Of a stretch of DNA of 24,973 bases, positions 1 through 20,263 are shown piece by piece. This stretch comes from a virus. The notes below the pieces were generated by a model, which was not told the DNA's origin, did no database searches, and saw only the letters and a list, made by a program, of their open reading frames with translations. The position numbers and the translations under genes were made by a program. Where the stretch lies: positions 1 through 24,973 of the IMG/VR virus record IMGVR_UViG_3300042545_001367; one strand, written 5' to 3'. Within the stretch, counting starts at the first letter, position 1; every line of letters begins with the position of its first letter.

Positions 1-2402
1 TCCGATCTCATGATGCGCGCCACCACGCGCGGCCTGCGGTGCAGCACCTTGCCATCGGGCAACACCGTGTCGTCCCCCGCGCGCAGCACGAGCACGCTCG
101 AATTGTCCAAGTCGCCCTCGCCATCCGTCACGTCGGCCCCCGTCGCCGGGTCGCAGCTCGTGAGATACCGGGCATCCTGCGCCGGCATCTCCAGCACCGC
201 CAGCCATGCCTCTTCCATCGGCGTCGCGCGGAACGCAATCGGCACATCGGTCATCCGCCCCGCCAGCACATCCTCCACCCCGGCGCCGTGGGCATCGAGC
301 ACCCCATACTTCCACTGCCCGCGCGCCGCCTCCGCCGAGCGCCGCAGCGCCGCCAGGCTCTCGCGAGAAAAAGCCGGCGAGCCCGACGCCACAAATGCCG
401 TCTTCGGGTCCGGCGGATACTCCTGATCAAACTTCGCCTCGTTGCCGTTGAAATCATTCCGAATCGTCCACCGCCGCCATTTGAGCTGCGCTGGCGTCCA
501 TTGGTAGCGCCGGATTCCCTCGGCCTCCGCCGGCGTGAGCGAGGCCATGATGCGGTCCTCCTCCCCCTCCCCAAGTTCCATCGCGTTCCGCGGGATCTCA
601 TACCACGCCGCAAAGACCCGCATCCAAATCTCATCCGGGTCCGCCGCACCCTCCTCGCTCTCCCACTTCTTCCAATAGTCCTCATCCTCCGGCCACCGCG
701 CCGCCAGCCAGCGCGTGTAGAACCAGCCCGAGTTTCCGCACCACAACGCTCGCCCATTCCTGCGGACCATGAGCAAGTGATCGTTCGGCAGTGTCACACA
801 ATAGACGTTCCCGGAATACCCCGGAACGAGTTCAGGCCGGCGAGTGTGCTTTACCATTGCCCGCGTGGATTCCGTGAACGTCGCGAACCTGTTCCGCGCT
901 GTGCCGTAGGCGCTCGTGGCATACCCTGCCTTCAACGCGAGTTCCTGAATGTCGTCCTGCAATGCACGGTCAACGCCACATGCGATCCGCCCGCGTGCAT
1001 TGCCAGCGCGCATCAGCTCCGCATATCCATCACCCAAATTGATCGCCATCAGCAGTTCACGGCACTGTTCCCTGCTCATCGCCATCAGCAGTGCCCGCGG
1101 AATCCGCTTCGGCTTTGAAAACTCCCGCAGATAGTCCGCCAGTTGCGCGTTCTCGAAAATGAAGCGCCGGCCCCGACCGTGCGCCACATCACGCAGCGGG
1201 ATGCCGAGCGCGCGAGCAACGCGCTCACACGCCGTCCGCATGGCATCTGGATATGTCACCTGCGTCACAGTCACGCTCTTGTTGCCTGGCTTGAATGTGA
1301 CATGCCCCTCCGTCAGAAAGTATCCAAGGAACTCAAGCCACGCCGCGATTGGCACCGTCTTTTCCGGCTGTGTGCGCCACCCTGCCCCCTGCCTGTGCCG
1401 ATACGCTGGAAGCGTGAAATCAGAAGCGCCGGGCGTGCGCCAGTCCATCCCGCGCTCGAAATAGTAGTCCGTCACGGAATCGAGCATTGAGCCGGCGGCC
1501 TGCATCTTCATCTCCCCCTTTTGACGCGCACACCACACGCTGTGATTTGGCGTGACGAGCAGATCCACGCTCTGCGCCTTGATCTGCACCATGTCTCCGG
1601 CGTGATGATGCACCTGCTTTTTCCAGTGGCTCTCGTAATACGCGATGCCGGTCTCCAGCGACTTCGACAAAATCCGTTCGGTGCCGGTCAAGTCTTTGAA
1701 AAACTTCCATCCCTCATCGGTAAGCAGTTCAGTCTTCTCATCGTAGCACTGCCCATTCGCCGTGCTCTCCGCGATCACGATGCTGTCCGCCGTCTTCGGC
1801 ACCGTGTTCAGCGTCGCGAGCATCAGCTTGTTCGCGTCCCTCACCCCGTCCGAGGGAAAATGCGCGCACTCCGAAAACCACAGCACGCGGAACCCGCCGC
1901 CGCGGCCCGCATTCGGGTCCAGCGCCGTTTCCTTGATGGCTTCGCTCCCGTTCCCATACTCGATCTTGCGCGCGCTCCCGCTCACGCCGAAGCCCCACGG
2001 AAACACGTCGCTCGTCGCAAACTGCCGTTGCAGTTCGAAGATTTCATCGCTCCGCTTAAAAACATCCGCCATCACCAGCGCCTTCGTCACCTTGTTCCGG
2101 CATTCGAGGTCCACCACCTTCGAGCAAATCAGCGACGACCCCGAGCGCCGGCCCTTCAACACGATGATGCGCGCCGGCCTTTTCAGCCGACGACACAGCG
2201 CCAGCGCACGCTCGATGCGCAGTTGAAGCGTGTTCGCCTTCGGATTCGCCGCATTCAGCGCCGCCAGCTTCACCGGATCCCGCTCGATGGCATCCCCGAT
2301 CCACCGCTTCCCCGAGTCATCCGCCCACTGGATGCACGTCTCCAGGTGCGTGCAGGGCGAGGACACCGCCGCCAGCAAAGATTCAGCCGTCGCGATATCC
2401 AT
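1..2402 (-). CDS. terL: Terminase large subunit, intein-containing, C-terminus cut by window edge
   Basis: Packaging motor ATPase/nuclease that translocates phage DNA into the prohead and cuts it. The frame is open from ATG 2402 to base 1. Exteins: Walker A-like LKGRRSGSS (residues 82-90, with the usual Lys replaced, as in several terminase families), Walker B FRVLWFSECA (171-180, acidic E178), and motif III ESTANGQ (212-218), where the intein interrupts. After the intein the protein resumes with SGWFYTRW. The nuclease domain follows (YLTSCDPATGAD, then DNSSVLV), with the first catalytic Asp visible. The start lies one base after the small-subunit stop, so the pair is probably translationally coupled. 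About 460 extein residues are visible and the rest is beyond the window. Function is well supported by motif order and by the adjacent small subunit. Confidence 0.93.
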   Translation of the reverse strand, partial: MDIATAESLLAAVSSPCTHLETCIQWADDSGKRWIGDAIERDPVKLAALNAANPKANTLQLRIERALALCRRLKRPARIIVLKGRRSGSSLICSKVVDLECRNKVTKALVMADVFKRSDEIFELQRQFATSDVFPWGFGVSGSARKIEYGNGSEAIKETALDPNAGRGGGFRVLWFSECAHFPSDGVRDANKLMLATLNTVPKTADSIVIAESTANGQCYDEKTELLTDEGWKFFKDLTGTERILSKSLETGIAYYESHWKKQVHHHAGDMVQIKAQSVDLLVTPNHSVWCARQKGEMKMQAAGSMLDSVTDYYFERGMDWRTPGASDFTLPAYRHRQGAGWRTQPEKTVPIAAWLEFLGYFLTEGHVTFKPGNKSVTVTQVTYPDAMRTACERVARALGIPLRDVAHGRGRRFIFENAQLADYLREFSKPKRIPRALLMAMSREQCRELLMAINLGDGYAELMRAGNARGRIACGVDRALQDDIQELALKAGYATSAYGTARNRFATFTESTRAMVKHTRRPELVPGYSGNVYCVTLPNDHLLMVRRNGRALWCGNSGWFYTRWLAARWPEDEDYWKKWESEEGAADPDEIWMRVFAAWYEIPRNAMELGEGEEDRIMASLTPAEAEGIRRYQWTPAQLKWRRWTIRNDFNGNEAKFDQEYPPDPKTAFVASGSPAFSRESLAALRRSAEAARGQWKYGVLDAHGAGVEDVLAGRMTDVPIAFRATPMEEAWLAVLEMPAQDARYLTSCDPATGADVTDGEGDLDNSSVLVLRAGDDTVLPDGKVLHRRPRVVARIMRS
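732..1748 (-). other. Intein with LAGLIDADG (DOD) homing endonuclease, inside terL
   Basis: A 339-residue in-frame protein insertion that should splice itself out of the terminase. It begins with Cys1 (block A, CYDEKTELLTDEGW). Block B is LLVTPNHSVW with T66 and H69. The endonuclease motifs are WLEFLGYFLTEGH (137-149, acidic E147) and LLMAINLGDGYA (D240). Block F is NVYCVTLPNDHLLMV and block G ends WCGN with Asn339, followed by Ser as the +1 nucleophile. The penultimate residue is Gly instead of the usual His, a variation seen in some functional inteins. Both endonuclease acidic residues are intact, so homing activity is plausible. Removing residues 1-339 restores a normal terminase motif III (ESTANGQ joined to SGWFYTRW). 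Confidence 0.93.
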
Positions 2403-2403
2403 T

Positions 2404-2985
2404 TCAGCCGCCAGCGGGTTCCGAGGCTTTTCCGCGGCGCTCCGCCAGCCACGCCGCCAGCGTCTCAGCGTTCAGCACCTTCTGGTTGCCGAGGTCCACC
2501 TTCTCAGGCGCGTCAATGCCGGCCAGCTTGGCGATGCGCTCCCCATATTTGATCATCGTCATGCTCAGTTTGTTGATCTTCTCAAATTCCGCCAGCGCCA
2601 TCACGCTCCCGTCAGGCTTCTCGTCCTTCACTTCCAGCGTCTCATCGAACAGCTTCCGCGCCACCAGGCTCTGCCCGGCATCCATGAAGGCCAGTTGCTC
2701 GTCGCGCAGCGCCTCCGCGCGCTCCGCCGTCAGCCCGGCCGTCTCCTTCATCGCCTCCGCGCACAGCTCGCACGTGTACCCGAGCGAAATATCCAGCGCC
2801 GCGGCGATCGTTCGCATTACCTCCCCGCGCAGCCGGCGGGCCACGATCGCCGACTTCAGCGCCGCGCGCCGGTCCGCCGTCGCCTTCGGCGCCCGCCGCC
2901 GTGCAGCAATGGCCTTGCCCCCTTTGCGCGCCGCCTCGCGACGGATTTTCTTCGGCACCGGCTTGCGTGTTTTCTTCGTGCTCAT
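2404..2985 (-). CDS. terS: Terminase small subunit-like DNA-binding protein
   Basis: A 193-residue protein directly upstream of terL, probably the small terminase subunit that recognises the packaging site. The N-terminus (about 1-45) is very Lys/Arg-rich. It is followed by a helix-turn-helix-like stretch (MRTIAAALDISLGYTCELCA, about 57-76), then a long helical region with acidic and Leu/Ala spacing and a C-terminal tail. It ends one base before the terL start codon. The assignment rests on position, size and the HTH-plus-helix layout; sequence motifs for this family are weak. A start at ATG 2985 leaves 19 bases after the upstream integrase stop. Confidence 0.72.
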   Translation of the reverse strand: MSTKKTRKPVPKKIRREAARKGGKAIAARRRAPKATADRRAALKSAIVARRLRGEVMRTIAAALDISLGYTCELCAEAMKETAGLTAERAEALRDEQLAFMDAGQSLVARKLFDETLEVKDEKPDGSVMALAEFEKINKLSMTMIKYGERIAKLAGIDAPEKVDLGNQKVLNAETLAAWLAERRGKASEPAGG

Positions 2986-3004: not shown

Positions 3005-4033
3005 TTAAGCGTCTAACAATCGCAACCTTCCCGCCCCAGCCATCAATCCCATTCTTCCCATCCGTCCCATCTCGGGATCCAGCGGGCTCGGAACACTCAG
3101 CGCCTCCGCATGGCAGTATCCCGCCGTCGTCTGGATCTGCGAATGCCCCATGCTCTTGCTCATGGCCACCACATTCACCCCGCGGTCGAGATTGTGCGTC
3201 GCGTATGCGTGCCGCAGCTCATGCGGCACGATCGCGAGCCCCAGCTTCCGCCGCGCCTGCTTCACCGCCCGCTGCACATTCGCCTCGTGCATCCGCCAGC
3301 GCACCGTCTCCCCCGTCCGCGGATGCCCGCACGGCCGATGCGCCGGGAACAGCCACGCCCAGGCCCACGCGCTCCGATACTCAGGATACTTCCGCCCGAG
3401 CTGATGCGGCAGCGCCACCGGCACACCGTTCCGCACATCCATCTCCCAAGTCCGGCGCGCAATCGTCATCTGCTGCTCGATCTCCACCGCCAGCGAGCAG
3501 GGCAGCCGCACCACGCGGTCCTTCCCGCCCTTCGCCCCGAGAATGAACAGCGAACTGTCCTCAAACTTCACATCCTTGATCCGCAGATTCAGCGGCTCCG
3601 TCACCCGCAACCCCGCCCCGTAAAGCAGCCGTGCGACCAGGTTCGTCGGATACCCGCCCACATCCCGCACCGCAGAAAGCAGCGCCCGCGTCTCCTCCAC
3701 CGTCGGCGCGTGCCGCATCTGTTGCGGACGCGAAGCCCGCAGCGCATCCACATCGTTCAGCGGAGTCTTCATCACATCCTTGTAAAAAAAGAGGATCGCC
3801 GAGAAAGCCGAGTTCTGCGTCGCCACCGCCACATCATGCTGCGTCACCAACATCGTCAAAAAAGCCTCCGCCTTCGCCTCACTCGAAAGCCCACGCTCCA
3901 GCGTGAAAGTGAAAGCCAGATACCTTCGCAACCACCCACAGTAATCCCGCTCCGTTGAAAGCGCCTTCCCCTGCCGCCGGATCACCCCCCGCGCCCTCTC
4001 CACATGATTTTCAATAAGTTCCCTGCGCGTCAT
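3005..4033 (-). CDS. intI-like: Integron-type tyrosine recombinase (IntI-like)
   Basis: A 342-residue site-specific recombinase, within the usual integron-integrase length. It has an N-terminal SAM-like core-binding domain (about 10-95) and then the catalytic domain: R143 (GAGLRVTEPL), K171 (AKGGKDRVV), H271-E-L-R274, H297 (SMGHSQIQTT) and nucleophile Y306 (AGYCH). Residues 208-250 hold the extra IntI-specific region (LPHQLGRKYPEYRSAWAWAW, then LFPAHRPCGHPRTGE). This matches the family's LxRKYP...W.W.fP pattern and is absent from ordinary phage integrases and XerC/D. The start codon overlaps the stop of the acetyltransferase-like gene by ATGA. It lies next to a run of attC-like palindromes, supporting a cassette-recombination role. 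It is unlikely to be the phage integration enzyme, because a second integrase lies beside the att region. Confidence 0.88.
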   Translation of the reverse strand: MTRRELIENHVERARGVIRRQGKALSTERDYCGWLRRYLAFTFTLERGLSSEAKAEAFLTMLVTQHDVAVATQNSAFSAILFFYKDVMKTPLNDVDALRASRPQQMRHAPTVEETRALLSAVRDVGGYPTNLVARLLYGAGLRVTEPLNLRIKDVKFEDSSLFILGAKGGKDRVVRLPCSLAVEIEQQMTIARRTWEMDVRNGVPVALPHQLGRKYPEYRSAWAWAWLFPAHRPCGHPRTGETVRWRMHEANVQRAVKQARRKLGLAIVPHELRHAYATHNLDRGVNVVAMSKSMGHSQIQTTAGYCHAEALSVPSPLDPEMGRMGRMGLMAGAGRLRLLDA

Positions 4034-4707
4034 AGCTTTGGCTTTCTTGCCGGTTCAATATGCAAACCGGCGGTTGGAGAAACACAGTTCTCCGCCTCAG
4101 CGCCGTTGTGAGTAGATGCGGTTTTTTGCCAGCGGTTTTTCACTTCGAGCATCACCGGGCTGTGAGTCCGCTTTTCATTCAGGTGGTCATCCTTCCGCCA
4201 ACCATCCTTTACGGGCTTCGTCTTCCCCACCACCCGCCAGCCTGCCCCCCGCAAAGACGCGCCGCTTTCCGTTTCGAGGGTGTACGTAATCATCCGCCGT
4301 CCCCCCATTGCCTCCCACGCTCGCCAGCACGCGGCATACAGCATCGAGCACGTTCCCTTCGGCGCGGGCTCTATCGTGCAGACGCGGAGAACCTCCGCCG
4401 TCCATCCATCCATCAGTGTCGCCGAGAGCGGGTTTCCGACTATCGCGACCCCCACAAGCCGACCATCCACCGCCACGCCGGCAGACCACTTGCCTCCGTT
4501 GCGTGCGGTGCGGCCGTTGTGCCTGTGGTGCTGCGCGACGAAATCATTCGCCTTTCGGAGCGTCATCGGAACCATGTATGGCCTCCCACTCCCCGCCAAC
4601 TCTGCTGCCACGGGCGGCTCTAAATCGGGCGGAGAACCAGGGCTTGCACCAAACGCGCCTGGCGTCGTGCTGAAAAGCTCCGGTTCGGATTGGATAGGCG
4701 GCTTCAT
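4030..4707 (-). CDS. XF1762-like (GNAT-like) phage protein, first cassette ORF
   Basis: 225 residues. The core (about 46-165) begins MTLRKANDFVAQHHRHNG and continues GVAVDGRLVGVAIVGNP, then a CSMLYAACWRAWEAMGGRR helix and TYTLETESGASLRGAGW. This is the pattern of the phage XF1762-type family, which resembles GNAT acetyltransferases; the substrate is unknown. The first 45 residues are a Pro/Gly/Ser-rich linker encoded by one arm of an attC-like palindrome. The start at 4707 is chosen because it overlaps the upstream stop as ATGA; longer forms in this frame run into the upstream gene. The C-terminal 25 residues overlie the small palindromes next to intI. Confidence 0.72.
   Translation of the reverse strand: MKPPIQSEPELFSTTPGAFGASPGSPPDLEPPVAAELAGSGRPYMVPMTLRKANDFVAQHHRHNGRTARNGGKWSAGVAVDGRLVGVAIVGNPLSATLMDGWTAEVLRVCTIEPAPKGTCSMLYAACWRAWEAMGGRRMITYTLETESGASLRGAGWRVVGKTKPVKDGWRKDDHLNEKRTHSPVMLEVKNRWQKTASTHNGAEAENCVSPTAGLHIEPARKPKL
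4049..4093. promoter_or_regulatory. Candidate attI region: paired palindromes with a near-canonical GTT core
   Basis: Immediately upstream of the IntI-like start codon are two adjacent inverted repeats: GCCGGTT/AACCGGC (4049-4055 with 4065-4071) and GGAGAA/TTCTCC (4076-4081 with 4088-4093). Between them lies GTTGGAG (4073-4079), one base away from the integron core consensus GTTRRRY. Integrons carry attI between intI and the first cassette, which is this position. The site overlaps the 3' end of the acetyltransferase-like gene. The assignment is positional inference. Confidence 0.35.
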
Positions 4708-4752
4708 TGCGGGGGCGCGTCCTCGGCGCGTTGGTGAAGCCCGGCGTTCTCC
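4631..4752 (+). repeat. attC-like site 1
   Basis: A 122-nt imperfect palindrome bounded by GGAGAAC (4631-4637) and GTTCTCC (4746-4752). The left arm GGGCTTgCACCaAACGCGCC (4640-4659) pairs with GGCGCGTTGGTGAAGCCC (4725-4742) perfectly except for two unpaired left-arm bases, shown in lower case. Extrahelical bases on one arm and AAC...GTT ends are the structural hallmarks of attC. The stop/start junction of the two flanking minus-strand genes (4704-4707) lies in the loop. Confidence 0.75.
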
Positions 4753-5105
4753 GTCTCTTTCTGTCGTGCATCGAGGAGCACGATTAGTTCGACCAGCGCT
4801 GTGCCTGTTTTTCCGATTGCGAGTTGGAGTTTCAGGTCGCCCGCCTCTCGCGCTTCGAGCATCCAGCATAGCGCTTCGCATTCGGCCTTTTCAACGCGCT
4901 TCGTCAGAGACGGAGAACCAGCGCGCTGCAAGCGAACACGGGTCTCGTCTTCGGTCGGAGGCTGTGCCGAGTCATCCGCAGCCGCCCGTCCACCCCAGAA
5001 AACTCCGCACGGATAGCACATCGATAGCCCGCCCTCTTTTGTGCCGGTATTGGTGCCTCCGCACTGCGGACAAACCGCCGGCTGCTTTGGTTGTCCTTCG
5101 CTCAT
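4704..5105 (-). CDS. Zinc-ribbon protein, cassette ORF
   Basis: 133 residues, function unknown. The N-terminus carries a zinc-ribbon-like pair of CxxC motifs (CPQCGGTNTG at 15-24 and CYPCGVFW at about 30-37). A polar linker follows, then a helical segment (about 70-115: ECEALCWMLEAREAGDLKLQ, then a TALVELIVLLDARQ stretch). The linker residues around LQRAGSPSL are encoded by the left arm of attC-like site 2, and the C-terminus (ETENAGLHQRAE) by the right arm of site 1. The gene overlaps both neighbours by ATGA, which supports the chosen start. A nucleic-acid-binding or regulatory role is possible but not shown. Confidence 0.75.
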   Translation of the reverse strand: MSEGQPKQPAVCPQCGGTNTGTKEGGLSMCYPCGVFWGGRAAADDSAQPPTEDETRVRLQRAGSPSLTKRVEKAECEALCWMLEAREAGDLKLQLAIGKTGTALVELIVLLDARQKETENAGLHQRAEDAPPQ

Positions 5106-5144: not shown

Positions 5145-5395
5145 GCTCTTTCCAGTTCGCGACGAATGATGGGCAAGCAGATGCGCGGGAACTCCATCGG
5201 CGTGAACAGCCCGTGCCGGATTGACGATTGCTCCCAGAGTGCCGAGGCGATGGTTTTCGCCAGAGCAGCTACCCAGTCAGTGCTCGCGAACACCGCCCTG
5301 TCTGGACGCGCGGGTTCGGGCACGAGGTTACTTGCGCAGCGCGGGCAGATGCCGCAGTCCGTGTTCCAATCGCATTGTGTGCAGTGTAGGCTCAT
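5102..5395 (-). CDS. Zinc-finger-like protein, cassette ORF
   Basis: 97 residues, function unknown. It begins MSLHCTQCDWNTDCGICPRC, a treble-clef or rubredoxin-like cluster of CxxC pairs (C5-C8 and C17-C20). The helical remainder includes WVAALAKTIASALWEQS and ends with a charged helix (RRELERAATEVAQRHGEEKL). Both ends overlap neighbours by ATGA. The last 20 residues are encoded by the right arm of attC-like site 2, and the region around DRAVFASTDW by the left arm of site 3. It resembles the small zinc-ribbon ORFs next to it in layout only; no sequence similarity is claimed. Confidence 0.72.
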   Translation of the reverse strand: MSLHCTQCDWNTDCGICPRCASNLVPEPARPDRAVFASTDWVAALAKTIASALWEQSSIRHGLFTPMEFPRICLPIIRRELERAATEVAQRHGEEKL

Positions 5396-5449
5396 CGGCT
5401 CGTATTGGATGCGCCGCTTTGGGCGGTGTCGGAGACTTCCCCGTTCCCC
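5267..5449 (+). repeat. attC-like site 3
   Basis: The left arm AGTgCTCgCGaACACCGCCC (5279-5298) pairs with GGGCGGTGTCGGAGACT (5421-5437) with three unpaired left-arm bases at the same positions as in site 2. The right end is GTTCCCC (5443-5449); the left outer half-site is degenerate. The gene junction at 5392-5395 lies in the loop. Confidence 0.7.
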
Positions 5450-6366
5450 GAATTTGCGCCGCTGTGTTTCGTGGCCGCGTCGTCGCCTGCCGGCTCCGCA
5501 CCCCCGCCGCCCAAGAAGAACTCAGAGGCGAGGCGTCCGCGTGCAATCTCGACGTATTTCGCCTCACGGTCGCACCCGAGATAGTGGCGTCCCTCCTGTT
5601 TCGCGGCGAGCAGCGTTGACCCGCTTCCGCAGCACATGTCGAGCACCACGTCGCCGGGATTCGTGTATGTGCGGACGAGGTAGCGCATCATCTCAATCGG
5701 CTTTTGCGTCGGGTGGAGTCCGGTTTCCGTGTTCCAGTCCTGCACAGAGCTTGGCACTCGATCCACCGTCAGTTCATTGTCCTTCCGAACTTCAAACTTT
5801 CGGTAGTTTTCAGACGCCCCGCGGAAGGTGCATTTGTAGTTCGCACGGTCTGCTCCAGCCCCTCTCCGAGTTTCCCTTTGCGCGTTGTATGTCCACTTGC
5901 CCGCCGCGAATACGACCACCGATTCATGTTCCTTGAACGGCTCCCGGACGGTGTTCGCGAAGTTGCTGCCGCGATTTTTCCGCCAAACCCATTCGTGCCG
6001 AAATTCCTCCACGTTGCTCATCACCATCTGTGCCGTGAACGGCTGGCTTGCTGTCGTCACTACAGCGCCACGGCAGAGCCTTCGCACTTGCAGCCACCAA
6101 GCCGGAAGATCAATCACCGTGTCCCATCGGTTCGAGGTTGTGCCGTATGGCAAGTCCGTGATTACCGCGTCAACGCAAGCGTCGGGGAGAGCCTCCATGA
6201 ACTCGATGCAGTCGGCGATTTGAACGGTGTCCAACAGACCCCCCACTCCGCTCCGCACCGGGGCGCGTTCCGTGGCGACGCTCGGCTCTAATCCGAAATT
6301 CGGGGAACCAGGCGCTGCAAGGGACTGCACCCTGGCGTTCAGTTGAGGTAGCGAATTTCCAGTCAT
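5392..6366 (-). CDS. Site-specific DNA methyltransferase (adenine-N6/cytosine-N4, beta-type order)
   Basis: 324 residues. It transfers methyl from S-adenosylmethionine to an exocyclic amine in DNA. The catalytic motif is DLPYGTTSNRWD (71-82). HPTQKP (218-223) and the AdoMet-binding motif DMCCGSGST (243-251), followed by HYLGCDREAKY, come after it. Catalytic motif first and AdoMet motif second is the beta-class order. No restriction endonuclease gene accompanies it, so it is probably an orphan methylase protecting phage DNA or altering regulation. Start 6366 is chosen because it lies four bases after the upstream stop; longer in-frame starts overlap that gene by more than 100 bases. N-terminal residues 15-45 are a linker encoded by the left arm of attC-like site 4. 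Confidence 0.92.
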   Translation of the reverse strand: MTGNSLPQLNARVQSLAAPGSPNFGLEPSVATERAPVRSGVGGLLDTVQIADCIEFMEALPDACVDAVITDLPYGTTSNRWDTVIDLPAWWLQVRRLCRGAVVTTASQPFTAQMVMSNVEEFRHEWVWRKNRGSNFANTVREPFKEHESVVVFAAGKWTYNAQRETRRGAGADRANYKCTFRGASENYRKFEVRKDNELTVDRVPSSVQDWNTETGLHPTQKPIEMMRYLVRTYTNPGDVVLDMCCGSGSTLLAAKQEGRHYLGCDREAKYVEIARGRLASEFFLGGGGAEPAGDDAATKHSGANSGNGEVSDTAQSGASNTSR

Positions 6367-6425
6367 AAAATCAGTCCCGTTTCGGAGAGCGTTCCCGGTG
6401 CATCCCTTGAGCTTCATCGTTCGGA
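6302..6425 (+). repeat. attC-like site 4
   Basis: A 124-nt palindrome bounded by GGGGAAC (6302-6308) and GTTCGGA (6419-6425). The left arm GCTgCAAGGGAcTGCACC (6314-6331) pairs with GGTGCATCCCTTGAGC (6397-6412), perfect except for two unpaired left-arm bases. The stop at 6371 and the methylase start at 6366 lie in the loop. Confidence 0.75.
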
Positions 6426-6907
6426 GACTTCCGATTCCTATCCGACGCGCTATCCCCCGCCGCCCCCAGCCTTCCAACCAAAGCCGCGCACGTCTCGTAT
6501 TCCGTTGCACCGTATTGAATCAATCCGGCTTCATCGAGCAGGCGGCAGTATCCCGCCAAAAGCGAAGGCGCATCAGTCTTTTCTTCGGCGGTCAATTCGT
6601 AGCCTTCCAGCCGCGCAATGCACTCTGGCATTGAGAGCGCCATCCAGTCTTCAGCGCAGCCCTTGTATGCGTAGAGTCCAAGCGCGGCTTTCCACTCTTT
6701 CACTTTCGCGCGCCGAACCTCCCGCTCCCCAACCGCTCGAAGTCTGCCGCTCACGGTCGGCTCTAGCTCGAACAGCGTCTCCGAACCATGCGCTGCACAG
6801 CGAACTCCGCCGTTCGTAGGCGCGGTTTCGAGCACGCGGTCATAGCGGCAGTGCGGGCACTCCACCAGTTCGGGGTCCATGTCTTTCGTGCAGTTCGGGC
6901 ATTTCAT
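6371..6907 (-). CDS. Zinc-ribbon protein, cassette ORF
   Basis: 178 residues, function unknown. It starts MKCPNCTKDMDPELVECPHC, a zinc ribbon with C3/C6 and C17/C20. A linker encoded by the left arm of attC-like site 5 follows (ETLFELEPTVSGRLRAVGE). The larger helical domain contains EDWMALSMPECIARLEGYEL and a Tyr/Leu-rich helix (SLLAGYCRLLDEAGLIQYGA). The C-terminus SPNDEAQGMHRERSPKRD is encoded by the right arm of site 4. Start 6907 overlaps the upstream stop by ATGA; a longer in-frame form would overlap that gene by over 130 bases. Confidence 0.75.
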   Translation of the reverse strand: MKCPNCTKDMDPELVECPHCRYDRVLETAPTNGGVRCAAHGSETLFELEPTVSGRLRAVGEREVRRAKVKEWKAALGLYAYKGCAEDWMALSMPECIARLEGYELTAEEKTDAPSLLAGYCRLLDEAGLIQYGATEYETCAALVGRLGAAGDSASDRNRKSPNDEAQGMHRERSPKRD

Positions 6908-14800: not shown

Positions 14801-15360
14801 AAGAAATCTTCAAACGAGAGGGGTTGGTCCTCGCGCTCCTCACCGCCGCAGTTATTTTACTCGTCTGGCTCGTGCGGATGAACGCCCTTCCGCTCGCCGT
14901 CCTATGGCTCGGCTGTCCCATCGCCGCATGGCTGCTCACTGTCCCGTCCGTCTCCGCGTGCCTCACCATTCGCGGCCGTGGAATCCTCGGCATCATCCTC
15001 ATCGGCCTGTCCATCTTTGCGTCACTCGCGATGGATGCCCACCGGCGCGAAGTCACCGACTGGATTGGAAGCACCTGCCTAGAGGGATACACCGTCCAGA
15101 TGGAGGGCGCGGATGAACACGACGAACAGGACAACGATGATCCTCGTTTTTCCAATCGCCCGCACCACGACTGGACAGCAACCAGCGACGCAGGAACCCT
15201 TGCCCTCACGGTATTCCAGATCGTCTTGTTCGCCAGCCTGTTCGCGGTGCCCCTTGCAACGTGGTGGCTATCCCGAGACGCGCGCGACAAAATGGAGCAG
15301 GAATACTGGCGGCTGGAACACAAAAAAGCTACGGGCCAAGCCGCGCGCCTCGTGAAATGA
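14797..15360 (+). CDS. Multi-pass membrane protein with acidic loop
   Basis: 187 residues. Predicted helices by hydrophobicity: about 9-27 (LVLALLTAAVILLVWLV), 30-56, 63-79 (ILGIILIGLSIFASLA) and 134-157 (LALTVFQIVLFASLFAVPLA). A polar segment (about 82-133) holds an acidic patch (EGADEHDEQDNDD). The C-terminal helix is charged (DARDKMEQEYWRLEHKK). It follows the lipoprotein gene by ATGA overlap and precedes integrase by ATGA overlap. Together with the lipoprotein it may form an envelope complex expressed from the prophage. No family recognised. Confidence 0.75.
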   Translation: MKEIFKREGLVLALLTAAVILLVWLVRMNALPLAVLWLGCPIAAWLLTVPSVSACLTIRGRGILGIILIGLSIFASLAMDAHRREVTDWIGSTCLEGYTVQMEGADEHDEQDNDDPRFSNRPHHDWTATSDAGTLALTVFQIVLFASLFAVPLATWWLSRDARDKMEQEYWRLEHKKATGQAARLVK

Positions 15361-16631
15361 AAAAGCCCGCCCCGAAGCCCAAGCCCGTCCACGTCGCCCG
15401 GTGCAACGCCGTCCGCATCACCGTCTATCGCAACGGCCCCGCGCGCTACGGCATCACCTGGCGCAAGCTGGAGCACGGTCCGCGCATCCGCGAGACCTTC
15501 GGCACCCGCGCCGCGGCAGTCGCCCGTGCGGATGCCATCGCGCTCGCCCTGCACAACGGCCGCGCCGACGTTCTCACCCTCACCCACGCCGATCGCGAGA
15601 ACTACCAGCGCGCCATCGAAGCCCTCGCCCCCCTCGGCATCCCGCTGCACGCCGCCATCGCCGAATACACCGCCGCCCGCGCCATCCTCGGCACCCACAG
15701 CATCCACGAGGCCGCGCAGTTCTTCGCCAGCCGGCGCATCGTCCAGGCCAAGGCACCGCCCACCGCCGAGATCGTCGCGAGCATCCTCGGTGATTTGCGG
15801 GCCGACGTCATCCAGCCCGTGTCCGGCACCTACCTGAGCGTCATCACGCCCCGGCTCCGCGCCATCGCCGCCGCATTCCCCGACCTGTCCGACGCCACCC
15901 CCGAGACCGTCGCGCGGTTCCTGCGCACCCTCCAGCACCGCGGCAGCCCCGTCAGCCCGAAGACCTTCAACCACTACCGCGCCACATTCGCCTTCCTCTG
16001 GCGATGGTGCGAGCTGCGCGGGCTCGTCAGCGGCAAGACCCCGCTCGCAGGCGTCAAGCGGCTCGATGCCCCCGGCACACGCGAAGTCTTCACCGTCGGC
16101 GAACTCCGCGCCCTCCTCGCCTACGTCCCGCGCGAATGGATCCCGCTCGTCGCCCTCGGCGCCTTCGCCGGCCTGCGAGTCTGCGAAATCGCCCGCCTCT
16201 CGTGGGATGCCCTCTGCTGGGATGCCGGCGAGATCCGCATCCGAGCCGGAGTAGCCGGCAAACGCGGCAGCCCCCGCAACGTCCCCATGCTCGAACCCCT
16301 GCGCGCCTGGCTCGCCCCGTGGCGCACCGCCCTTGGCCGCATCTACCCCGGCACCGAGCGCGCCCTTGGCCGACGTCTGGAATGGTTCCACAAACAAGCC
16401 GCGGCCCACATCCCCGGCTTCCGGTGGAAAGAAAACGCCCTCCGGCACAGCTTCGGCAGCTACCACGCCGCCAAATTTCAGAACCTCGAACTCACCCGCG
16501 CCATCATGGGCACCAGCATCACCATGCTGCGCCGCCACTACCACGACCCGCAATTCCAGGGCGACGCCGAGCAATTTTGGAACATCCTCCCCACCGCAGA
16601 CCCCGCCGGAAAAATCCTCGCCATCGCGTAG
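15357..16631 (+). CDS. int: Tyrosine integrase (phage integration), atypical catalytic residues
   Basis: 424 residues. Arm/core-binding N-terminal part (about 1-240), then catalytic domain: R274 (FAGLRVCEIARLSW), a basic beta-hairpin (GVAGKRGSPRNVPM), N360-A-L-R363-H, then IMGTSITMLRRHY with Y395. The usual box II His is Asn, and the His/Trp after MG is Thr. Similar ALRHS variants occur in other integrases, so this does not imply inactivity. It overlaps the membrane protein gene by ATGA and is followed by a hairpin and the att region. This is the likely prophage integration enzyme, as opposed to the IntI-like protein at 3005-4033. Confidence 0.87.
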   Translation: MKKPAPKPKPVHVARCNAVRITVYRNGPARYGITWRKLEHGPRIRETFGTRAAAVARADAIALALHNGRADVLTLTHADRENYQRAIEALAPLGIPLHAAIAEYTAARAILGTHSIHEAAQFFASRRIVQAKAPPTAEIVASILGDLRADVIQPVSGTYLSVITPRLRAIAAAFPDLSDATPETVARFLRTLQHRGSPVSPKTFNHYRATFAFLWRWCELRGLVSGKTPLAGVKRLDAPGTREVFTVGELRALLAYVPREWIPLVALGAFAGLRVCEIARLSWDALCWDAGEIRIRAGVAGKRGSPRNVPMLEPLRAWLAPWRTALGRIYPGTERALGRRLEWFHKQAAAHIPGFRWKENALRHSFGSYHAAKFQNLELTRAIMGTSITMLRRHYHDPQFQGDAEQFWNILPTADPAGKILAIA

Positions 16632-17729: not shown

Positions 17730-18872
17730 TCAGATCGCCGTGTCGGAAAGCCACGTCCACGTCGCCTTCAGGAACTCGGCGGAGATGGCGGATGTTCCGC
17801 CGTTGCTGTCCGTCGTCTTTGTTCGGTCGAAAACCTTCGTTTCGATGATGTGAAGCGTTGTGCCGCTGATCGTGATCGTGCCTACCGTTGACTGATAGTA
17901 TCGGGGACCAGTCCAGGTGACAGCGTTGTAGCCGTTTCGCAGCACGCCCGACGCATCGTAGGGCTTGTAGTTCGCCCAGTAATCAGTGTGCGCCGTGGCC
18001 GAAGATGAGTCATCCAGCGGGAATGTGTCGTTGTAGGGCGGGAGATATTCCAGCGGTCCCCAACGAGTCTGCGCCACGGTAATGCGGCCAGCGGCAATGC
18101 TCACGGTCGCGAGGGCTGTGTAATACAGGCCAAGCTCTGGCGAGCTCCCCGGCACGGTCGCGCCAGCGTGATAAGTCAGCGTGCCTGCGCCTCGGTCGAG
18201 CTTCACATAAACGGTGTCACCGTTGGCGACGTACAAAAAGAACGCTTCATTGCGACTGGGGCCGTAGAAACCGCCAGCCCCTTTGATCCCCATCCATGAT
18301 CCGCCCATCACAGTTACCGACGGTCCAGCATCAGAAAGCACGCTCACGTCAAACTCGCGCAAGTGCTGGAGGCGTCCGGCGTATCCGAATGGTCCCCAGC
18401 GGGTTTGCGAGACCGAAATGATGCCAGCGGCAATACTGACACTCGCCAGTTGCTGGTAAAAAATTCCGTTTGCCGGATCGTCGGAGGGCAGCGCCCCGGA
18501 AAGAATTGTCAGAGTCCCCCCAGCGATGAGTTCGTGGTAGTCGAGCTTGAGGTAGATCTTGTCCCCGTTCGCGACGGTCAGCGCGTGGTAGGCGCGGCGC
18601 GTGCCGGCGTTGGTTGCGCCGGATGCCCGAATGCCCATCCATGTGCCCGCCATCACCTTCACGGTCGGGCCGGCATGGTCGAGCACGCTCACGTCAAACT
18701 CGCGCTCGCCGCCCACAGGCAGCAGCCCCTCGGGGCGATGATACGGCATCGGCTCGTTCCGGTCTTCGGGGCGGGCCTGGTCCGGGATGCTGTGCGGGAC
18801 CACTTCGCGGATCCGCGCCAGCACCGGGTCCGGGATTGCAAATGGATCAGGGTCTTCGATCATCCCGATCAT
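17730..18872 (-). CDS. Fibre-like structural protein with duplicated domain
   Basis: 380 residues, probably a tail or receptor-binding protein. After a 55-residue N-terminus come two similar domains of about 115 residues. Each begins EFDVSVL..AGP.V.VM.G.WMGI and ends near SIAAG.I.V.QTRWGP.(E/G)Y. A distinct C-terminus follows (about 290-380, [20 protein letters not shown], ending [14 protein letters not shown]). The internal duplication and Gly/Ser/Thr-rich strands fit an exposed fibre. Start 18872 overlaps the upstream gene by ATGA; a longer in-frame form is a shadow of that gene. Confidence 0.75.
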
Positions 18873-20263
18873 CCGGTGACGGTGGTGAGCGCGCGGCGAT
18901 TCAGATTGTACTTCCACGGCGCGATTTCGCAGGAGAACACGATGTTGGAAACCGAATACAGGAAAGCCTCCGCGCCAGGCGTGCCCGTCCACGATGGCCC
19001 CACTACGCCTACGTAGCCCCACTTCGGATTGTCGTTCGCGGTGTTAAAGTTTGGAACCGTCACGCCCGGACTGAGCACCGCCACCCCGCGGAGGTTGACG
19101 TTGTAAAACTTGCCGGCGTGAATGAGGTTTTTCGTCTGCGGCGTGAAGTAGGCGTCCGCCGCGTAGCTCAACAAATTGGTGTTGAGTGAAACCACCGGCG
19201 GAGATGTGTAGCCGCTGCCGCCGCCGGTGACGGCGATGGACGTGACCACGCCCGCGGTCAGCGTCGCCGTGGCCGTGGCGGTAGTTCCGGGCAGGGCGAT
19301 TGTCACCACCGGGGTGAGTGTGTATCCACTGCCGCCGCCGGTGACTGCGATGGACGTGACCACGCCACCAGTCAGCGTCGCCGTGGCCGTCGCCCCGGTG
19401 CCAACGCCGGTGATTGTCACGACCGGCGGCGATGTGTAGCCGCTGCCTCCACTCGTGACCGCGATGGACGTGACTACGCCGGCAGTCATCGTCGGGTACG
19501 CCGTCGCGCCGGTGCCTGGCGGTGCGATTGTCACCACCGGGGCAGCATAGTAGCCGCTGCCTCCACCAGTGACCGCGATGGACGTGACCGCGCTACCAGT
19601 CAGGGTCGCCGTAGCCGTCGCCACCCCCGTCGGATTCGTGCCGTAATGGAATGTCGTGGTCGAAGTCGCCCTTCGGGATCCCCCGGCGAGAATCGGCCAC
19701 TGCAAATCCACAACCACCGCGCCGTCCTCGCCTTCAGAATGATCTACCGCAGGGCTGCCAACCACCACGTCTGGATAGTGAATGGTCGTGGTGCCGGTGC
19801 GTGTCACGCTGACGGCGGCGAAATTCAGCAGCGTGCTCGTCACCTTGCGGCCGTAGGCTCCGTTGATGGGGTGATACTCGATGGACGAGCCGGCGGTCTG
19901 CGTGTAGGGCGCGCTCGGCTTCACCACGATCTGCGTGTCCACCTGCACATCGGTCTGCGTCTCCTCGTCCTGGGTGTAGGTCGTGAGCACTGTGCCGGGG
20001 ACGCGCTCGTATTTGCGATACACTTCCACCGTCGTCCGGTCGCATTGCAGCTCGATCTGCTCCACGAGCACGTTGTTCGGGAACCGCGTCGCGTCGGGCT
20101 CGGGCGTGGTGATGAATGGCAGCGCCGCCGCCTTCAACCGAGGGAGCGTCTGCACGCGCTCCGTCACCGGGTAGTCCACATCGCCGTAGGGGTAGCTCAC
20201 CTTGGGCTCGCCCTTGAGCGCGCGGAGAACGTCGAGATGCGCGAGGAATGGTGCCGCGGCCAT
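18869..20263 (-). CDS. Large structural protein with four 38-residue GGSGY repeats
   Basis: 464 residues. The N-terminal domain (about 1-205) has [20 protein letters not shown] and other mixed alpha/beta segments. Four tandem 38-residue repeats follow (about 208-355) with core [20 protein letters not shown], a pattern frequent in phage and bacterial surface proteins. The C-terminal domain (about 360-464) contains [19 protein letters not shown] and [20 protein letters not shown]. Its place after the adaptor and before the fibre-like gene suggests a tail or head-fibre structural protein. The repeats may vary in number between relatives by slippage. Confidence 0.75.
19196..19640. repeat. Tandem 114-bp coding repeat, four copies
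   Basis: GCGATGGACGTGAC recurs at 19233, 19347, 19461 and 19575, exactly 114 bp apart. It encodes the 38-residue GGSGY repeats on the minus strand. Confidence 0.92.

Follow-up and report, generated by a model that had tools for sequence, protein, structure and literature searches.

A probable class 1 LAGLIDADG homing intein within the coupling motif of a viral terminase large subunit

The terminase large subunit (TerL) gene at the edge of a 24,973-nucleotide viral contig (IMG/VR record IMGVR_UViG_3300042545_001367, analysed over its whole length and referred to here as the window) very probably harbours a LAGLIDADG homing intein of class 1. It lies in frame between ESTANGQ and SGWFY, inside the energy-coupling motif, the most conserved one of this DNA-packaging motor. 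The argument is made by sequence, and combines the anatomy of the element, its membership of an intein family, its insertion site, its presence and absence in a relative, and the fact that the inteins concerned are more alike than the terminases that carry them. On these grounds the intein appears genuine and is probably competent for both splicing and homing, splicing and DNA cutting being its predicted activities.

The minus-strand open reading frame that carries the element (2402..3) is open across 800 codons, including the insert. When joined, the two exteins match the terminase large subunit family phrog_2 in a profile comparison (E 3.2e-15), and their homologues are TerLs in 17 annotated phage records. 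The gene runs on beyond the contig edge: bases 9-134 of the window are identical at all 126 positions to bases 1-126 of a second IMG/VR contig of 33,834 bp (L040), which carries the remainder of the TerL nuclease domain (...LVVETNKGE... HDDDVLALAMG) and is probably a further piece of this phage's genome, separated from the window where the assembly branched. The bases outside this overlap, TCCGATCT, look like the remnant of an Illumina adapter, so that the final TerL residues as read in the window (..RS) are an artefact. Alignment of the joined exteins and L040 with known TerLs revealed that the P-loop, Walker B, motif III and the nuclease acids are all present. The P-loop of the window TerL (LKGRRSGSS; 2128-2172, minus strand) lacks the usual Lys before Ser/Thr, as do those of its relatives (GLST, GFTT).

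Judged by position alone, the gene that adjoins TerL possibly encodes the terminase small subunit (Table 1). The 25 kb contig also codes for two tyrosine integrases (3005-4033, minus strand; 15261-16631, plus strand), one of them directly beside the terminase genes, and for a Mom-like DNA modification protein (phrog_1384, E 2e-32) near an N6/N4 DNA methylase (4030-4881 and 5392-6510, both minus strand), a pair that may possibly serve in protection against restriction. A protein encoded at 18869-20263 (minus strand) contains repeated GGGSGYxxxPxVTI units and matches the repeats of virion and baseplate protein families.

Table 1. Features of the TerL gene and its intein. A4 denotes the alignment of 64 family members.
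Feature	Position	Strand	Basis
TerL with intein	9..2402	-	3' end cut at contig edge; continues on L040
N-extein, ATPase domain: P-loop region LKGRRSGSS, Walker B LWFSECAHF, first half of motif III	1749..2402	-	alignment with inteinless TerLs
First part of coupling motif III, ESTANGQ	1749..1769	-	inteinless TerLs have ESTANG/ESTAEG here
Intein, 339 residues, Hint splicing domain and LAGLIDADG nuclease	732..1748	-	relatives, profile, model, fold matches
Cys1, N-terminal splicing nucleophile	1746..1748	-	64/64 in A4
Block B, T66-P-N-H69	1542..1553	-	T 63/64, H 64/64 in A4
E147, first LAGLIDADG acid (WLEFLGYFLTEG; GYFLTEG)	1308..1310	-	E or D 61/64 in A4
D240, second LAGLIDADG acid (AINLGDGY)	1029..1031	-	D 61/64 in A4
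Cys317 of block F (VYC)	798..800	-	family-wide, 58/64 in A4
Block F His324, which may assist Asn cyclisation where a penultimate His is lacking	777..779	-	43/64; role proposed by analogy with PMC5050341
C-terminal Gly338-Asn339	732..737	-	G 62/64, N 64/64 in A4
C-extein start SGWFY, +1 Ser	717..731	-	matches SGYFY/SGEFY/TGEFH in other TerLs
C-extein: rest of ATPase, start of nuclease domain	9..731	-	phrog_2 match and TerL alignment
Apparent adapter remnant TCCGATCT, artefact	1..8	.	departs from L040 exactly at this point
Gene adjoining TerL	2404..2985	-	phrog_645, E 9.7e-11; phrog_645 label is not terminase small subunit

The insert reads CYDEKTELLT...RALWCGN, with ...IVIAESTANGQ before it and SGWFYTRW after it. 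At the join position the aligned inteinless TerLs read ESTANGASGEFY, ESTANGASGYFY and ESTANGVGGFFY; thus, motif III is exactly re-formed once the insert is taken out. A preliminary description of this DNA had proposed a 339-residue intein with these boundaries, lying in terminase motif III between ESTANGQ and SGW, and had called for the extein join to be compared with inteinless TerLs. The codons, relatives that align end to end, and the profile and fold matches all agree with that length and those boundaries, and the alignments with inteinless TerLs support both the placement and the join. The two nuclease acids that it described as intact, E147 and D240, are indeed present and are aligned across the family. 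The GC content of the intein is 0.593, as against 0.64-0.68 in the exteins.

Relatives of the intein number more than 100, most of them aligned over residues 1-339, and show that it is no chance reading. They were identified in 77 annotated phage records by tblastn (best E 1e-31), in 38 viral contigs and in 65 bacterial or archaeal contigs; a wider viral scan returned 448 stretches with relatives, 80 of which were kept. Members of this family reside in dozens of unrelated host proteins. Conservation was assessed in an alignment of 29 intein rows (A1), which is too diverse to act as a seed for collection scans, and in A4. Pfam identifies LAGLIDADG_3 in 57 of the 64 members and Intein_splicing in 23, and finds only a sub-threshold LAGLIDADG_3 match in the window intein alone. 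Similarly, a phmmer search of the PDB with the intein sequence alone gave no match and the family profile was needed, which matches PI-PkoII (7e-20), other inteins and splicing domains. The best PDB matches of an AlphaFold model of the intein (pLDDT 94.9, pTM 0.93) are the TliVMA/PhoVMA inteins, PI-PkoII and PI-SceI, followed by the nuclease I-DmoI. The sole hit of DNA-pattern scans for ESTANGxC[YF] lay in a RecA-like gene and was due to chance. Two further observations concern the family as a whole: Cys317 is near-invariant (58/64) where Cys1 is invariant, and in L002, L005, L006, L008, L012, L016, L022 and L034 the intein directly follows an NSWG motif, similar to the motif that holds the active-site Asn in papain-like cysteine peptidases.

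Cys1, the TxxH of block B, Asn339 with a +1 Ser, and the Hint fold of the model together place the element in class 1, with Gly338 standing in for the penultimate His that is usual, if not obligatory, in this class. The nuclease belongs to the LAGLIDADG (DOD) type by its two motifs with the acids E147/D240 and by its fold match to PI-PkoII and I-DmoI. Since a penultimate His is the textbook intein residue, the preliminary description was right to call the Gly atypical by that standard, but within the family it is the rule (28/29 in A1, 62/64 in A4). In the mycobacteriophage Bethlehem, an intein of the RDF protein that ends with a penultimate Gly splices fully, and changing this Gly to His slows splicing; according to the same study, an upstream block F His is able to replace the penultimate His (PMC5050341). 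Because Gly is common across the family and a Gly-ending phage intein splices, we do not regard Gly338 as an anomaly.

Established intein biochemistry proceeds from an acyl shift at Cys1 through transesterification to the +1 residue and Asn cyclisation to extein ligation. Applied to the window, TerL and intein would be translated as a single precursor, in which attack by Cys1 and the acyl shift would lead to transesterification onto the +1 Ser. Cyclisation of Asn339 may then be assisted by a block F His, for which His324 is the candidate, or by another group replacing the penultimate His, and ligation would yield an uninterrupted coupling motif whose junction peptide would span ESTANGQSGWFY. 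In a mixed infection the nuclease would cleave motif III DNA in other phages whose site is empty, and repair of the cut site would copy the intein in. It is conceivable, if improbable, that this family, which spans phages, bacteria and archaea and combines Cys1 with a penultimate Gly and a near-invariant block F Cys, cyclises Asn in a way of its own or has a cysteine-based switch, with the result that splicing regulates terminase maturation and, through it, DNA packaging.

The two closest inteins, in the TerLs of L121 (ESTAEGN^TGEFH) and L122 (ESSAEGA^SGSFH), occupy the same codon boundary as that of the window, and the three form a single clade (support 100/100). Its sister clade (93/87) comprises the inteins of L123, L124 and L126, which are inserted shortly before this point of the motif, in other TerLs. 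In the TerL tree, the three carriers are interleaved with inteinless genes and require three label changes. Taking identity ratios as a rough clock only, the window intein is 52.5% identical to that of L121 and 47.8% identical to that of L122, as against 30% for the TerLs in both cases, and the corresponding values between L121 and L122 are 57.6% for the inteins and 58% for the TerLs. Tree paths agree with this, measuring 1.09 for the inteins versus 2.56 for the TerLs between the window and L121, and about 0.88 versus 0.70 between L121 and L122. As the window intein resembles those of L121 and L122 more closely than its TerL resembles theirs, it seems, on what is good evidence, that the intein moved between terminase lineages after these had split. 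The lower GC content of the inteins (in L121/L122, 0.49-0.52 for the intein versus 0.59-0.66 for the exteins) fits such a transfer. We infer that homing, rather than other recombination, was its cause.

Occupied and empty versions of this site can be compared directly in L122. The TerLs of L206 (99.0% protein and 96.7% DNA identity to L122) and L207 (97.9% and 94.9%) lack the intein, and their exteins are joined exactly at the intein boundary. This is direct evidence of gain or loss, whether a recent gain or a precise loss, and provides a natural occupied/empty pair for measuring homing. The pair comes from a relative with the same site rather than from the window TerL itself, for which no close inteinless homologue was identified among viral contigs and annotated phage records; the viral-contig scan, made with the N-extein, gave no relative of this TerL. 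Within six codons either side of the empty site, L122 differs from L206 by 7 changes (6 of 593 windows are as high) and from L207 by 11 (17 of 593). Such clustering would fit co-conversion or site escape, but we do not lean on it because L206 and L207 also differ from each other there. The suggestion that placement in this motif makes loss difficult and homing effective receives only partial support: presence/absence and transfer between lineages are observed, but from an empty allele 99% identical to an occupied one it is clear that the site is not occupied in every case.

Readings in which the insert is something other than a class 1 intein fare poorly. An RNA-level explanation, in which the transcript loses a group I or II intron that contains an endonuclease reading frame, would be in keeping with the frequent presence of homing nucleases in introns, but the insert keeps the reading frame over its whole length, starts with intein block A and finishes with block G, and an Rfam scan of the window gave no match, leaving it a vanishingly small chance; we rejected it on the Rfam result. 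It is extremely improbable that the 339 residues are an unspliced, normal insertion domain of the terminase family, even though the frame is open throughout, given that the splicing residues are conserved, that the same family is found in so many unrelated proteins, and that other TerLs lack the insert at the same codon; the residues were not found as a normal domain of homologous terminases, the outcome that the preliminary description had named as its refutation. A class 3 intein, in which splicing starts at Cys317 rather than at Cys1, has in its favour that Cys317 sits where class 3 inteins have their block F nucleophile and is retained in 58/64 members. The class 3 signature combines the lack of a position-1 nucleophile with a WCT triplet, namely block B Trp 12, block F Cys 4 and block G Thr 5 (PMC5050341). 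Against this, the family has an invariant Cys1, Cys337 stands where Thr would be expected before Gly-Asn, and the block B Trp is apparently one place off in our block numbering. With only the block F Cys of the triplet in place and Cys1 present, this very improbable mechanism was rejected.

A less drastic alternative accepts a class 1, splicing-competent intein but holds that its nuclease is now inactive and that it is inherited vertically with TerL. Nuclease activity cannot be read from sequence, and at 48-53% identity the window intein stands at a moderate distance from its closest relatives, but both catalytic acids and the fold are retained. Moreover, the inteins are far more alike than their TerLs, beyond what vertical descent alone would give, although this argument concerns activity in the past and not that of today. 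We consider an inactive nuclease fairly unlikely, and favour a homing-competent intein.

Compared with known elements, the inteins of L121 and L122, which to our knowledge have not been published as such, share the codon boundary and clade of the window intein but lie in TerLs only 30% identical to it and have D rather than E as the first nuclease acid. Those of L123, L124 and L126 share the family and the terminase motif, but are inserted before the STANG part rather than after it (IG^STANG, IE^CTPNG). Other members of the family match end to end and have a penultimate Gly, in a different host protein (ThyX of Corynebacterium phage P1201) or at another TerL point (KYKFQ^SAEYQ in Gordonia phage GMA6). 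In our alignment Vincenzo and phi1_186018, likewise of the mycobacteriophage group, carry a coupling-motif intein at ILIQ^TRWH, which we take to be the TerL6-f site of mycobacteriophage Chandler; it differs from the window intein in lying a few residues upstream, in ending with His-Asn and in the type of TerL. Coupling-motif TerL inteins are thus already known from mycobacteriophages, at a slightly different position. Kelley et al. 2016 described seven mycobacteriophage TerL intein sites, one of which (TerL6-f) is in the coupling motif; of the mycobacteriophage terminase inteins, five splice, one of these being a coupling-motif intein, and two cleave the allele that lacks the intein (PMC5050341). 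Chandler TerL6-f, like the window intein, lies in the coupling motif of the terminase ATPase, and it splices (PMC5050341). The Bethlehem RDF intein, likened here by description, is a class 1 intein with a penultimate Gly in another host protein (PMC5050341). A single TerL with two inteins is known from Mic1 (PMC7156551), and TerL inteins have been described in crAss-like phages (PMC7886860). Tentatively, on comparison with the TerL6-f and GMA6 insertion points, the boundary used in the window appears to be unreported, adding a further insertion point within the TerL coupling motif. Set beside these systems, the window element seems an ordinary intein, though one that is clearly mobile, and its lineage has apparently entered, at one and the same codon boundary, terminases that are only 30% identical.
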